Source of the DNA: Angustibacter sp. Root456
GTDB lineage: Bacteria > Actinomycetota > Actinomycetes > Actinomycetales > Angustibacteraceae
DNA length: 58,753 nucleotides
Direction of reading: 5' to 3'
NCBI RefSeq assembly: GCF_001426435.1
Contig: NZ_LMER01000019.1
Span: forward strand, 190,338-249,090
In this document: piece by piece, positions 5,869-10,136 of the stretch
Numbering within the stretch: position 1 is the stretch's first letter
How the letters are laid out: each line of letters starts with the position of its first letter
Notes under the pieces: generated by a model
Databases searched by the model: none
The model's input: only the letters and a program-made list of their open reading frames with translations
Told to the model about the DNA's origin: nothing
Program-made: the position numbers and the translations under genes

Positions 5869-6032
5869 GCGAGCGCCCGGCCGAGCAGCCGACCGGTGCC
5901 GAGCCCGGCGAGGGGCTCGAGCAGACGAAGGACGACACCGACGTCGGCTGGGGCGAGACGCCCGACGCCGAGGCCGCCCGCGACGAGCACGAGCGCTGGC
6001 TGCTGGAGCAGCGACCGCCCCACTGGGACTGA
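5865..6032 (+). CDS. Small acidic protein coupled to the helicase
   Basis: A 55-aa protein whose ATG overlaps the helicase stop codon (ATGA), which implies translational coupling. It is acidic and Glu/Asp-rich, with a central DDTDVGWGE segment and a C-terminus ending in WLLEQRPPHWD. Proteins with this type of ending appear in other actinobacteria, as far as I recall, but I know no function. The coupling suggests a partner or modulator of the helicase. The last codons form the first unit of a 15-bp tandem repeat that continues past the stop. Confidence 0.7.
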   Translation: MSERPAEQPTGAEPGEGLEQTKDDTDVGWGETPDAEAARDEHERWLLEQRPPHWD

Positions 6033-6085
6033 CACCGCTGGGACTGACCCCGCTGGGACTGACGCCGCTGGGACGGACGCCGCTC
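6021..6085. repeat. 15-bp tandem repeat carrying repeated stop codons
   Basis: Four 15-bp units begin at 6021, 6036, 6051 and 6066, with a partial fifth. Consensus is CGCTGGGACTGACNC. The first unit is the 3' end of the 55-aa gene (His-Trp-Asp-stop). Because the period is 5 codons, each copy repeats Trp-Asp-TGA in the same frame. Confidence 0.85.
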
Positions 6086-6096
6086 CAGCCGCCGCG

Positions 6097-6540
6097 TCAC
6101 AGGGTGCTGGGCGGGGTGCCGGTGCTGCTCGGCGGGGTGGCGCCGCCCTGGCGGGCCAGCAGGTCACGGATCTCGGTGAGCAGCAGGACGTCCTCGGCCG
6201 GGGCCTCGGGCTCGGGCTCGACGCCGGCCTTGCGGCGTGCTGCCAGCCTGTTCATCGGGACGACGAAGACGAAGTAGACGACGGCAGCCGTGATCAGGAA
6301 GACGATGATCGCGTTGATGAGCAACGAGACGTCGATGAACGTCGACTTCTCGAGCTTGCCGCCGCGAAGGGAGAAGCCCCAGCCCTGGCTCGTCGCCCCG
6401 GGGAAGGCCGCGATGATCGGCTGGATCACTGCCTTGCCGAAGGCCGCGATCACGGCCGCGAAGGCCGTGCCGATGACGACCGCGATCGCCAGGTCGACGA
6501 CGTTGCCGCGGGTGATGAAGTCCTTGAAGCCCTTGAGCAT
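6097..6540 (-). CDS. mscL: Large-conductance mechanosensitive channel MscL
   Basis: A 147-aa homologue of MscL, the pentameric membrane channel that opens under membrane tension and protects against hypo-osmotic shock. The N-terminus MLKGFKDFITRGNVVDLAIA contains the amphipathic S1 helix and the start of TM1. TM2 is a hydrophobic run near residues 70-93, followed by the basic MNRLAARRK stretch and a cytoplasmic tail with the typical LLTEIRDLLAR helix. Length is normal for the family. It is downstream of and co-directional with the SAF-domain gene, with a 93-nt gap. No clear ribosome binding site or -10 is visible. Confidence 0.95.
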   Translation of the reverse strand: MLKGFKDFITRGNVVDLAIAVVIGTAFAAVIAAFGKAVIQPIIAAFPGATSQGWGFSLRGGKLEKSTFIDVSLLINAIIVFLITAAVVYFVFVVPMNRLAARRKAGVEPEPEAPAEDVLLLTEIRDLLARQGGATPPSSTGTPPSTL

Positions 6541-6633
6541 GGCTGCGTCCGATCTGCTGGAGAGCTGAGCCGTACGGCCCCGACGCGCCGAACGTACCGC
6601 GCTCGAGCGCTCTCGGGCAGGAAGCGACGCAAG

Positions 6634-7314
6634 CTAGCGGAGCACCACCGACAGCGGTCCGGCCGCGGCCGACTGGGCCAGCGCCGCCGCCGTCGAGTCG
6701 TCGACCGCCAGCAGCACCAGGCCGCCGGACGACGCGTCGTCGGTGGCGAGCAGGTGGCCGGCGCCCGCTGCGTCGGGACGCGCCAGGACGGTGGCACCCC
6801 GGGCCACGGTGCGGGCCGACCTGGCTCCCTCGATCGCCACCAGGACGTCGACTCGGCTCCCAGGGTGCAGCAGGGCGGCCGCGGCGGCATCGGCCACGCG
6901 CACCGGCGCGGCCACGGCGCCGGGCGGCTGGCCGACCAGCAGACCACCACCGACCAGGCGGCTGGCGGCCAGCACCTCCCGGGCAGCGAGGGGAGCGGAC
7001 ACGACCCGGCCGACGACGTCATCGACTCGGGTCATCGCGGTCGCGGGCAGGTCGGCGCGGGGCCTCGGGGCGAGGCGGAGGTCGGCGCGTTGCAGCGCGG
7101 CTCCGGCCGGAACCTCCCGCGCGGCGACGACGACCGTGCGGCCGGGTTCGGGCTCGGGGGCCAGCACCTGCAACGCGCTCGCCGTCGCCGCGGCGGCCGC
7201 TCCGGCCGCCAGCCACCGGCGCAGCGCGGGCCGCCGCCGCGGCAGCGGTACCCATCCCCGCTCAGGATGCTGGCCGGTCAGTCGCTCACGCAGGCGTCGC
7301 AGGGTTCTCGTCAC
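6634..7314 (-). CDS. SAF-domain protein (CpaB/RcpC-like)
   Basis: A 226-aa protein with a basic N-terminus, one predicted membrane anchor (about residues 33-52) and an exported SAF domain (VVVAAREVPAGAALQRADLRL, about 60-80), followed by a CpaB/RcpC-like region (VDVLVAIEG). CpaB proteins belong to Flp/Tad pilus assembly, but no other tad gene is present. Isolated SAF proteins at this spot, beside mscL and fmdB, are common in actinobacteria as I remember it and have no established role. Its GTG start overlaps the stop of the phosphorylase gene by 4 nt. Confidence 0.7.
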   Translation of the reverse strand: MTRTLRRLRERLTGQHPERGWVPLPRRRPALRRWLAAGAAAAATASALQVLAPEPEPGRTVVVAAREVPAGAALQRADLRLAPRPRADLPATAMTRVDDVVGRVVSAPLAAREVLAASRLVGGGLLVGQPPGAVAAPVRVADAAAAALLHPGSRVDVLVAIEGARSARTVARGATVLARPDAAGAGHLLATDDASSGGLVLLAVDDSTAAALAQSAAAGPLSVVLR

Positions 7315-8132
7315 GGCAGCTCGAACGGCAGCCGCTGGCCGTCGAGCGCGTGCTGGCAGGCGCAGGTGTCGTCGTCCGGCAGCTGCCCGACGACCCCGGC
7401 GATCAACCCCTTGAGCCGCTCGACGTTGCGGCCGAACACCTCGAGCACCTCGTGGTGGGTCACGCCCTCACCCTCCTCGACGCCCGCGTCGAGGTCGGTC
7501 ACGAGCGCCACCGAGGTGAAGCACATCGCCAGCTCGCGGGCGATCGACGCCTCGGGCATGCCGGTCATGCCCACGACCGTGCCCCCGGTGGCGGCGTGCC
7601 ACTGCGACTCGGCGCGGCTGGAGAAGCGCGGGCCGTTGATCACCACCAGGGTGCCGCCGTCGACCACCTCCTCGCCCTCGCGCGCCGCGGTCGACAGCAC
7701 GGCGGACCGGCCACGCGGGCAGTACGGGTCGGCCATCGAGACGTGCACCACCGGGCCCTCGCCGTCGTACACGGTGTGGGCTCGACCCCACGTGCGGTCG
7801 AGCACCTGATCAGGCAGCACGACCGTGCCCGGCCCGTAGTCGGCGCGCAACGACCCCACCGCGCACGGCGCGAGCACCTGCCGCACCCCCACCGCCCGCA
7901 GCGCCCACAGGTTGGCCCGGTAGTTCACGCGGTGCGGCTGGTAGCGGTGGTCGCGCCCGTGCCGGGGCACGAACGCCACCGGCCGGCCGCGCACCTCACC
8001 CACCGTGAGGGCGTCGCTCGGCGCACCGAACGGGGTGTCGACCCGCACCTCGCGGGCGTCGTCGAGGAAGGAGTAGAAGCCTGAACCGCCGATGACCCCG
8101 ACGGGCGCGGTGCCGGACGCGTGATCGCTCAT
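7311..8132 (-). CDS. S-methyl-5'-thioadenosine phosphorylase-type enzyme
   Basis: A 273-aa trimeric-type nucleoside phosphorylase of the MTAP/PNP class, which cleaves methylthioadenosine or a related purine nucleoside with phosphate during methionine or purine salvage. Signatures are VIGGSGFY (phosphate loop), VPRHGRDHRYQPHRVNYRANL, the NGPRFSSRAES loop and the TDLDAG substrate loop near residue 220. That loop is typical of the family but does not settle MTA versus inosine or methylthioinosine specificity. It is probably leaderless, with TAGGCT 6 nt before the ATG, and is the first gene of a run into the SAF gene and possibly mscL. Confidence 0.85.
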   Translation of the reverse strand: MSDHASGTAPVGVIGGSGFYSFLDDAREVRVDTPFGAPSDALTVGEVRGRPVAFVPRHGRDHRYQPHRVNYRANLWALRAVGVRQVLAPCAVGSLRADYGPGTVVLPDQVLDRTWGRAHTVYDGEGPVVHVSMADPYCPRGRSAVLSTAAREGEEVVDGGTLVVINGPRFSSRAESQWHAATGGTVVGMTGMPEASIARELAMCFTSVALVTDLDAGVEEGEGVTHHEVLEVFGRNVERLKGLIAGVVGQLPDDDTCACQHALDGQRLPFELP

Positions 8133-8138
8133 GCACCC

Positions 8139-8144
8139 AGCCTA
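8139..8144 (-). promoter_or_regulatory. Leaderless -10 hexamer TAGGCT
   Basis: On the minus strand TAGGCT ends 6 nt before the phosphorylase ATG at 8132. Confidence 0.65.
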
Positions 8145-8198
8145 GGGCGACGGCGACCCGCGACCCGGCGGCTCAGCGGCCGCCTGTGGACAACCGGC

Positions 8199-8540
8199 TC
8201 AGGCGGCCGACGTCGAGCCCGACGACCCGCTCGAGGAGCTGGCCGACGAGCCGCTGGAGGAGCTCGACGACCCGGACGACGAGCCGGACGACGAGCTCGC
8301 CGAGTCGCTCTTGGCCTTGCCGTCGCCCGACCCGCCCGCGGGCAGCGACGACGAGGTGGACGACGAGCGCGAGTCGGTGCGGTAGAAGCCCGACCCCTTG
8401 AAGACGACGCCGACCGAGCCGAACACCTTGCGCAGCCGGCCACCGCACTGCGGGCACACCGTGAGGGCGTCGTCGCTGAAGGCCTGCACGACCTCGAAAG
8501 CGTGGTCGCACTGGGTGCAGGCGTAGTCGTACGTCGGCAT
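8199..8540 (-). CDS. fmdB: FmdB-family zinc-ribbon protein with Ser-rich tail
   Basis: A 113-aa protein beginning MPTYDYACTQCDHAFEVVQ. Two CxxC pairs (CTQC at 8-11, CPQC at 29-32) form the zinc ribbon of the FmdB/CxxC_CXXC_SSSS family, then VFKGSGFYRTD, the typical end of the conserved part. From about residue 58 the tail is almost only Ser, Gly and Ala. The family takes its name from the fmd operon of Methylophilus, but its role in actinobacteria is not established. The start at 8540 is supported by GGAGGG about 6 nt upstream. A CIRCE-like operator lies 28 nt upstream of the start, suggesting heat-shock control by HrcA. Confidence 0.85.
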   Translation of the reverse strand: MPTYDYACTQCDHAFEVVQAFSDDALTVCPQCGGRLRKVFGSVGVVFKGSGFYRTDSRSSSTSSSLPAGGSGDGKAKSDSASSSSGSSSGSSSSSSGSSASSSSGSSGSTSAA

Positions 8541-8568
8541 GAAGGCCCTCCGCAGGTCCGGGACCGGC

Positions 8569-8595
8569 TTGGCACTCCGGTCGTCCGAGTGCCAA
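8569..8595 (-). promoter_or_regulatory. CIRCE-like HrcA operator
   Basis: TTGGCACTC-N9-GAGTGCCAA: perfect 9-bp arms with exactly the 9-nt spacer of the CIRCE element (consensus TTAGCACTC-N9-GAGTGCTAA), differing from it by one symmetric base pair. A minus-strand TACACT (8595-8600) would be the -10, so the operator would cover the transcription start of fmdB. Confidence 0.75.
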
Positions 8596-8600
8596 GTGTA
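8595..8600 (-). promoter_or_regulatory. Predicted fmdB -10 (TACACT)
   Basis: TACACT on the minus strand directly abuts the CIRCE-like operator, giving an expected leader of about 48 nt to the fmdB ATG. A matching -35 is weak (TCGACG at 18-bp spacing). Confidence 0.45.
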
Positions 8601-8641
8601 CGACCCCGTCAAGTGCTGCGTCGACGCGACGGGCGCCGCCG

Positions 8642-9685
8642 TCAGGCGTAGTCCGCGAACAGTCGTCGCTCGGCGCCGTCGACCGTGACGAACCCGCCGT
8701 ACGGCAGGATCCACTGCGGCCGGGTGTGGCCGAACGGCGGCCCCGCGACGACCACGGCGTCGCCGTTGTACGCGTTCACGATCTCCACCGCGGTGTCACG
8801 CTGCTCGGCGCGCCGGGCCCGCCGCTCGTCGTCCGACGGTCTCGTCGTGAAGTCGGACGTCGGGGGCCGCGCGACGACGACGGCGTCGACCGCCGACAGC
8901 AGGCCGCGCTCGCCGAGCGAACGCAGGATCCAGCCGAACTCGCGGGCGGGGATGAGCTCCTCCGACGTCTCGAGCAGCAGCACGCCGCCGTCGAGCACCG
9001 AGGGGTCGGTCGGGAACCGCCCCGCCGTGAGCAGCCACTGCAGCACCTCGATGCAGCCGCCCCAGGTGCGTCCGGTGACCGACCGCTCGGGACCGGCCCA
9101 GGCCCAGGGCTCGGTGGGCCCGCGCTCGCCGAACTCGCTCAGCGCTCGCGGGTCGTTCCAGTCGAGCCCGATGTCCTCGGACTCGCCCGGCTCGGTGACC
9201 TCCAGGCGCTCACCCGTCAGCAGGGCCGCGCGCAGCGACTGCTCGTGCACCGGATCGACGTGCGGGCCGGGGCCGAGCTGCACCTGGGTCGAGCCGCCGT
9301 AGAAGCCGGCCACGCCCTGGGTCCACAGCCAGCTCAGCAGGTTGGTGTTGTCGCTGTAGCCCAGGAAGGGCTTGGGGTCGTGGGCGACCAGCGAGGCATC
9401 GAGGTGCGGGACGACGGTGATCTGGTCGTCCCCACCGATGGTCGCGACGACCGCGCGGATGTCGGGGTCGCCGAACGCCGCGTTCAGGTCGTCGGCCCGA
9501 TCGCGGGCCGTGGCCCCGAGCCGGCGGGTCGTCGGGTACTCGACCGGCACGAGGCCGGTGATCTCCTGCAGCCGCTCGAGCGCCTGCTCGTGCACCGCCG
9601 GAGCCACGGCCGGAGCAGCGAACGACGGCGACAGCACCGCCACCTTGTCGCCGGGGCTGGCCTTGCGAGGTGACACCAGTTCCAT
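8642..9685 (-). CDS. S66 peptidase (LD-carboxypeptidase / MccF-like)
   Basis: A 347-aa serine peptidase of family S66. This family includes LD-carboxypeptidases, which trim murein tetrapeptides during cytoplasmic recycling, and MccF, which inactivates microcin C-like peptide nucleotides. The nucleophile is Ser111 in GYSDNTNLL. The partner residues are seen as LLLETSEE (Glu) and GPPFGHTRP (His), giving the Ser-Glu-His triad. There is no signal peptide, so it is cytoplasmic. The length and the DIGLDWNDP insert are closer to MccF-like members, but specificity cannot be read from sequence. It is probably leaderless (TAAGGT 6 nt before the ATG). Confidence 0.85.
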   Translation of the reverse strand: MELVSPRKASPGDKVAVLSPSFAAPAVAPAVHEQALERLQEITGLVPVEYPTTRRLGATARDRADDLNAAFGDPDIRAVVATIGGDDQITVVPHLDASLVAHDPKPFLGYSDNTNLLSWLWTQGVAGFYGGSTQVQLGPGPHVDPVHEQSLRAALLTGERLEVTEPGESEDIGLDWNDPRALSEFGERGPTEPWAWAGPERSVTGRTWGGCIEVLQWLLTAGRFPTDPSVLDGGVLLLETSEELIPAREFGWILRSLGERGLLSAVDAVVVARPPTSDFTTRPSDDERRARRAEQRDTAVEIVNAYNGDAVVVAGPPFGHTRPQWILPYGGFVTVDGAERRLFADYA

Positions 9686-9691
9686 GGGTCG

Positions 9692-9697
9692 ACCTTA
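9692..9697 (-). promoter_or_regulatory. Leaderless -10 hexamer TAAGGT
   Basis: On the minus strand TAAGGT ends 6 nt before the S66 peptidase ATG at 9685. Confidence 0.6.
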
Positions 9698-9764
9698 GGC
9701 ATCGCGGGCGTCCCGTGCTCGCGGCGTTTCGGAATGGCCGGACCCGTCCCGCTGTTGAGTCGCC

Positions 9765-10136
9765 GTGACCACGCAGCAGCCCACGGGCTACGAGCTCTTC
9801 CGCCTCGCCGAGCAGTACCTCGCCGACGGCCACCCGCGCCACGCCATCTCGACGCTGGAGCGCCTGGACGCCGTCGACCTCGCCGCGCCTGCTGCCCAGC
9901 GCCTGCTCGCCCTCGCCTACTACCGGTTCGCCGCCCTCGAGCGCGCCCGCGAGGTGGCCGAGCGGCTGGTGGCCGCCGACCCGTCGGACGCCGAGAGCGC
10001 CCACCTGCTCGGACGCACGCTCACCCGGCTCGGCCGACACGACGAGGCGCGCCGCTGGCTGCGGCTGGCCGCCGCGCTCGACCCGCGCGAGGAGCACGTC
10101 GCCCGCGCCGACGACGCCGTCCGGCTTTCCGCCTGA
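9765..10136 (+). CDS. TPR-repeat protein
   Basis: A 123-aa soluble protein made of about three tetratricopeptide repeats (for example GYELFRLAEQYLADGHPRHA, then ALAYYRFAALERAREVAERL and AHLLGRTLTRLGRHDEARRW). TPR proteins act as scaffolds; the partner here is unknown. The start is GTG at 9765 with no clear ribosome binding site. The stop codon lies in the first copy of a 13-bp tandem duplication. Confidence 0.75.
   Translation: MTTQQPTGYELFRLAEQYLADGHPRHAISTLERLDAVDLAAPAAQRLLALAYYRFAALERAREVAERLVAADPSDAESAHLLGRTLTRLGRHDEARRWLRLAAALDPREEHVARADDAVRLSA

Follow-up and report, generated by a model that had tools for sequence, protein, structure and literature searches.

A predicted HrcA operator at the promoter of a ruc orthologue in Angustibacter sp. 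Root456

The gene fmdB of Angustibacter sp. Root456 is preceded by a perfect CIRCE palindrome, and the best reading of this element from its sequence and surroundings is that of an HrcA operator that extends into the -10 region of an orthologue of the mycobacterial gene ruc. We infer for this strain that HrcA binds the element, that heat induces the gene and that its product acts as a chaperone, and the explanation as a whole, namely an HrcA operator at fmdB, induction together with the groE genes and a Ruc-like product, is regarded as highly probable. The chaperonin (HrcA) branch of this actinomycete's heat-shock response would then include an FmdB-type protein, in agreement with what has been published on Ruc. 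An initial annotation of the sequence had proposed that HrcA controls fmdB and that FmdB is tied to the heat-shock response, and the proposal is supported by the other CIRCE sites of the genome and by conservation of the element before orthologues. The novelty it implied does not hold, since HrcA repression and heat induction have been published for the Mycobacterium tuberculosis protein Ruc (Rv0991c), according to the available text of PMC7448276. What is new is the breadth of the association between CIRCE and fmdB, its loss in some lineages, and the two promoter types which underlie it.

The Palindrome Upstream of fmdB

The window, which is the whole stretch of 58,753 nucleotides that was analysed, carries on its minus strand the palindrome TTGGCACTC-CGGTCGTCC-GAGTGCCAA (Table 1). 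This sequence shows no mismatch to the CIRCE definition, TTRGCACTC and GAGTGCYAA separated by a 9-bp spacer, and is flanked by one extra pair, C8568-G8596. When the entire window was searched with up to three mismatches allowed it remained the single match, and none of 100 dinucleotide shuffles of the window contained any match at this threshold. The exact geometry of an HrcA operator, which had been recognised in the initial annotation, is thereby confirmed, but the extent of 8569-8600 given there is too long, as the palindrome stops at 8595. Its placement at the expected transcription start of fmdB is plausible from the sequence. The palindrome lies 28 nt 5' of the start codon of fmdB (8540-8538 on the minus strand), in the promoter or leader where a CIRCE operator has to be located.

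Table 1. Features in the window and further CIRCE sites in the same genome
Feature	Position	Strand	Basis
CIRCE, candidate HrcA operator (9-bp arms, 9-bp spacer)	8569..8595	-	exact palindrome; motif also at hrcA, groES and groEL2 of the genome; conserved before orthologues
-10-like hexamer TACACT, sharing the first base of CIRCE	8595..8600	-	window sequence and conservation among orthologues
-35-like hexamer TCGACG, weak, 18-nt spacer to TACACT	8619..8624	-	window sequence; orthologue block, weak
Ribosome-binding site GGAGGG	8546..8551	-	window sequence
fmdB, ruc orthologue, 113 aa, Cys 8, 11, 29, 32, serine-rich tail	8199..8540	-	PF09723, TIGR02605, identity to M. chelonae protein
LD-carboxypeptidase (peptidase S66), upstream neighbour, outside the unit	8642..9685	-	PF02016, PF17676
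S-methyl-5'-thioadenosine phosphorylase, downstream neighbour	7311..8132	-	no terminator-like site between it and fmdB
SAF-domain protein	6634..7314	-	domain match; also flanks the Mycobacteroides chelonae gene
mscL	6097..6540	-	domain match; also flanks the Mycobacteroides chelonae gene
CIRCE before hrcA	C3:83412		hrcA confirmed by PF01628
Two CIRCE before groES	C15		Cpn10 match; groEL1 identified
Two CIRCE before groEL2	C13		groEL2 match
CIRCE, 2 mismatches, about 110 nt upstream of an HSP20 gene	C20:592542-592568 (L007 1501-1527)		

The Gene, Its Product, and Its Neighbours

The fmdB product matches the profiles PF09723 (E 6e-18, 65 bits with a cut-off of 34.4) and TIGR02605 (77 bits, cut-off 31.3), in both cases above the curated threshold, and has the CxxC...CxxC arrangement of the FmdB family zinc ribbon. 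Serine makes up 32 of the 55 tail residues, so that by its composition the protein combines an N-terminal zinc ribbon with a hydrophilic, presumably disordered C-terminal tail as Ruc does. Among solved structures no match was found at E 0.1. From the sequence the gene is best named a ruc orthologue because it shares with the mycobacterial proteins the cysteines at positions 8, 11, 29, and 32 (for Ruc these positions, C8/C11/C29/C32, were taken from primer names in the available text of PMC7448276), 42 of 58 N-terminal residues with the protein of Mycobacteroides chelonae (locus L185), and the SAF and mscL neighbours. The order in M. chelonae (L185, 4175-6238) is mscL, SAF, ruc, 5-formyltetrahydrofolate cyclo-ligase, and that in the window mscL, SAF, thioadenosine phosphorylase, fmdB; in both, mscL and the SAF gene lie downstream on the same strand, and the window has one additional gene between SAF and fmdB. 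A scan of 6000-9800 found no terminator-like site between fmdB and the thioadenosine phosphorylase gene, which could be co-transcribed with it. By analogy the window protein most likely works like Ruc, as a holdase chaperone upon cysteine oxidation, because its gene is the orthologue of mycobacterial ruc. The description of FmdB proteins as a poorly known family is outdated for the Ruc subgroup, Ruc being described as a redox-regulated chaperone in the text available from PMC7448276.

Other Heat-Shock Operators in the Genome

In the 3.84-Mb assembly seven CIRCE sites with at most three mismatches were found, compared with one for the backward motif used as control. Besides the site at fmdB there are six others, at hrcA, groES-groEL1 (two), groEL2 (two) and, weaker, hsp20; the groE operators of this genome thus match the motif, on which the proposal in the initial annotation depended. 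One hrcA and two groEL genes are present. From the sequence, hsp20 may be a further HrcA target. Among those genomes whose sites were listed, 6 of 12 have a CIRCE 190-220 nt before an HSP20 domain. Two HAIR sites with zero and one mismatch lie directly upstream of an HSP70 gene; only sites of this quality are meaningful, as HAIR sites with up to three mismatches are fewer than those of the backward control (30 versus 73). In actinobacteria HspR is usually the regulator of dnaK and HrcA that of groE. This division, which is described for mycobacteria in the available part of PMC8223512, seems to hold here as judged from the operators, with fmdB on the HrcA side.

Conservation within the Class

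A protein search found fmdB in at least 387 of the 393 genomes of the class. A strict pattern, CACTC-N9-GAGTG followed after 15-45 nt by an MPxY start, occurs in 58 of the 393 genomes (31 of 123 genera), versus 4 of 393 for the backward control. The loci were read in 46 of these 58 genomes, and in all except one (L063) the gene was fmdB. Distinct fmdB upstream regions, 132 in number, were then scored for mismatches to TTRGCACTC-N9-GAGTGCYAA within 300 nt. They fall into 101 with a CIRCE of 0-3 mismatches and 31 with 7-9 mismatches, with none at 4-6. In upstream regions simulated from a Markov null 0-3 mismatches were reached in 1 of 4700, and the 7-9 mismatches of the real loci correspond to chance level. 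Conservation of the element before fmdB orthologues, a point raised in the initial annotation, is thus found. The sample consists of the best 30 protein matches (24 with CIRCE), 64 loci hand-picked among the matches listed, in which the strict pattern had failed and with many families aimed at (39 with CIRCE), and 46 motif-recruited loci, all matching, which after removal of seven repeats and L063 leave 38 motif-picked loci. The 101 of 132 are accordingly partly motif-selected, and the 63 of 94 with CIRCE among the loci not picked by motif are not a class frequency. CIRCE stands 11-69 nt ahead of the start codon in all but one of the 101 loci, the exception having 99 nt.

The arms of the palindrome differ in their constancy. 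The right arm GAGTGC is nearly invariant, while an asymmetric left arm, GCAGTC, is seen in 33 of the CIRCE-bearing fmdB loci and the left arm of one family (f12) reads GCACTT or GCACTG. The idea that GCAGTC marks a weak operator specific for ruc was rejected, since this arm is also found before groEL2 in three genomes (G366, G318, and G112) and near hrcA in one of them (G318).

The Promoter

A scan of 6000-9800 with the sigma-70 consensus yielded no promoter above threshold, and TACACT was placed as the -10 hexamer because the position of this hexamer is conserved among orthologues. In 76 of the 101 CIRCE-bearing fmdB loci the hexamer sharing the first base of CIRCE carries A as its second letter, where shuffles predict about 16 such loci; in 69 the hexamer agrees with [TC]ANNNT. 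Conservation further upstream is weak, the orthologues having a T-G/T-rich block with GAC/GG roughly where the window has TCGACG. A second, SigH-like promoter type, GGAA[TC]-N15-20-GTT, is present in 20 of the 101 loci; about 0.5 were expected from single-base shuffles, a figure which ignores kinship, so that related sequences inflate the excess. This motif is absent from the window, and a SigH-like promoter was rejected for its fmdB. The occurrence of two promoter types among the orthologues agrees with M. tuberculosis, where, according to the available text of PMC7448276, the site for SigH overlaps that for HrcA ahead of ruc and SigH also drives the gene.

Loci without the Operator

The 31 CIRCE-less fmdB loci include all six read from family f5, which belongs to the same order, and all ten from family f30. 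Because such orthologues exist, the association between CIRCE and fmdB is judged from sequence to be dispensable. A match to hrcA was found in all 31 genomes, four of these matches being partial, and 25 of the 31 retain GCACTC-N9-GAGTGC somewhere, the remaining six all belonging to f30. Where hrcA and CIRCE are kept elsewhere in the genome, fmdB appears to have left a regulon that itself persists. In one genome, which is 94% complete (G029), CIRCE stands at fmdB and no hrcA match was found. That the presence of hrcA does not track CIRCE at fmdB was counted against the preferred explanation; as a test of the operator, presence or absence of hrcA turned out to be uninformative, 59 of 60 genomes having the gene. 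In four small f30 genomes (G065, G247, G287, and G384) the HrcA match spans only positions 123-215 of the PF01628 profile, and three of them are without any GCACTC-N9-GAGTGC. HrcA may be degenerating in these four.

Alternative Explanations

That the palindrome arose by chance can be disregarded for practical purposes, as no shuffled window produced a match and the conservation before orthologues refutes it in practice. It is also highly improbable that the upstream LD-carboxypeptidase gene uses it as its terminator or as an mRNA 3' hairpin. The palindrome does start 46 nt past the end of that gene on the same strand and would fold as an RNA hairpin, but no terminator-like site is found in 6000-9800, there is no T run, the sequence is conserved beyond what pairing alone asks for, and in M. 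chelonae the element precedes ruc despite a different upstream gene, that of 5-formyltetrahydrofolate cyclo-ligase. On the scan and on this neighbourhood the terminator reading was rejected.

Another alternative is an action mainly as a 5' hairpin of the fmdB mRNA, affecting stability or translation with HrcA binding being secondary; a role of CIRCE in mRNA has been reported in other systems. Transcription is predicted to begin within the palindrome or shortly before it, which could put the arms in the leader, and in some Streptomyces-like loci CIRCE is separated from the start codon by only 11-12 nt. Such a hairpin would nevertheless be broken at one pair in the 33 protein- or pattern-selected loci where GCAGTC faces GAGTGC, and likewise where the left arm is GCACTT or GCACTG with the right arm unchanged; together with a spacing to the start codon that ranges from 11 to 99 nt this makes a main role in the mRNA very unlikely. 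Finally, the site might bind HrcA while FmdB here is no chaperone and has, for example, the regulatory role implied by its old name. The family names do derive from annotation, but the cysteines, the serine-rich tail and the neighbours are common to the window protein and the mycobacterial one, for which chaperone activity is published (PMC7448276, available text), and this alternative is considered unlikely.

Proposed Mode of Regulation

In general, heat and other stresses that damage proteins inactivate HrcA. When bound to the palindrome at normal temperature, HrcA would mask the promoter's start region and keep fmdB expression low. Under stress HrcA would become inactive, and fmdB would be switched on together with groES-groEL1, groEL2, and hrcA. 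The product, with its zinc ribbon and presumably disordered tail, would then act as a holdase chaperone once its cysteines are oxidised.

Occurrence beyond the Class

Contigs were scanned for AGCACTC-N9-GAGTGCT with ATGCC....TAY 2-32 nt behind it. Of the 79 loci obtained, 38 encode FmdB proteins with CxxC, three encode FmdB-like proteins with cysteines missing (L166, L175, and L180), and 38 are not fmdB. By record title the 38 CIRCE-FmdB loci comprise 26 actinobacterial ones, four from Eremiobacterota, two each from Chloroflexi and Riflebacteria, and one each from Dehalococcoidia, Ignavibacteriales, Bacteroidetes, and another bacterium; as the records are mostly metagenome-assembled, single non-actinobacterial records call for caution. 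Two of the FmdB-like proteins with CIRCE upstream, L166 (titled Actinomycetes) and L175 (Acidimicrobiaceae), have lost all four zinc cysteines and retain the FKG-GFY motif and the serine-rich tail. Redox regulation through those cysteines is consequently impossible in these two.

In the open-licence literature searched no report was found of CIRCE at fmdB or ruc outside mycobacteria; the available text of a bifidobacterial study lists CIRCE solely at groEL, groES, and hrcA, and the name FmdB is absent from it (PMC9004370). A wider hypothesis is put forward here with a slight lean in its favour. Rather than being peculiar to mycobacteria, ruc would be a member of the HrcA regulon of long standing and wide occurrence (Actinomycetota, Chloroflexota, Eremiobacterota, Riflebacteria, and Bacteroidota/Ignavibacteria), and GroEL would regularly be accompanied by an ATP-independent redox chaperone. 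HrcA control of ruc would have been lost in some lineages that keep HrcA, would work with two interchangeable promoter types, one sigma-A-like and one SigH/SigR-like which adds redox input, and would persist even in cases where all zinc cysteines are gone from the protein. The survey suggests that the arrangement of CIRCE and fmdB is common, so that Ruc could be studied in laboratory actinomycetes that are harmless. The lineages without the operator and the CIRCE-linked proteins without zinc cysteines offer natural contrasts on what redox control adds.

Comparison with Known Systems

The closest known system is ruc of M. tuberculosis (Rv0991c). In the available text of Becker et al. 2020 (PMC7448276) HrcA represses this gene, the level of the Ruc protein goes up when hrcA is mutated or the temperature is 45 °C, and the protein is described as a redox-regulated chaperone with a disordered tail whose family is found across bacteria. 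The HrcA targets are given as groEL2, groES-groEL1, rv0991c-rv0990c, and hrcA-dnaJ2 in the part available of one paper (PMC8557902) and as groES, groEL1, groEL2, and Rv0991c in that of another (PMC8223512); a study of SigH in M. tuberculosis also lists Rv0991c. The window gene resembles ruc in the zinc ribbon with its four cysteines and in a predicted HrcA operator overlapping the promoter, and resembles the mycobacterial relative in M. chelonae in its mscL and SAF neighbours. It differs in that M. tuberculosis has a SigH site over its HrcA site where the window shows a sigma-A-like -10 hexamer and no SigH-like motif, and in that thioadenosine phosphorylase follows fmdB where in M. chelonae SAF comes directly after ruc.

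With the CIRCE control of groES-groEL, groEL2, and hrcA in actinobacteria the site shares the palindrome, the genome and the hrcA gene, although fmdB has one perfect CIRCE and groES-groEL1 and groEL2 of this genome have two imperfect ones each. The control of dnaK by HspR and HAIR is similar as a repressor-operator heat-shock system in one genome; repressor and motif at fmdB are different, and the HAIR sites listed in the genome scan lie at places other than fmdB.
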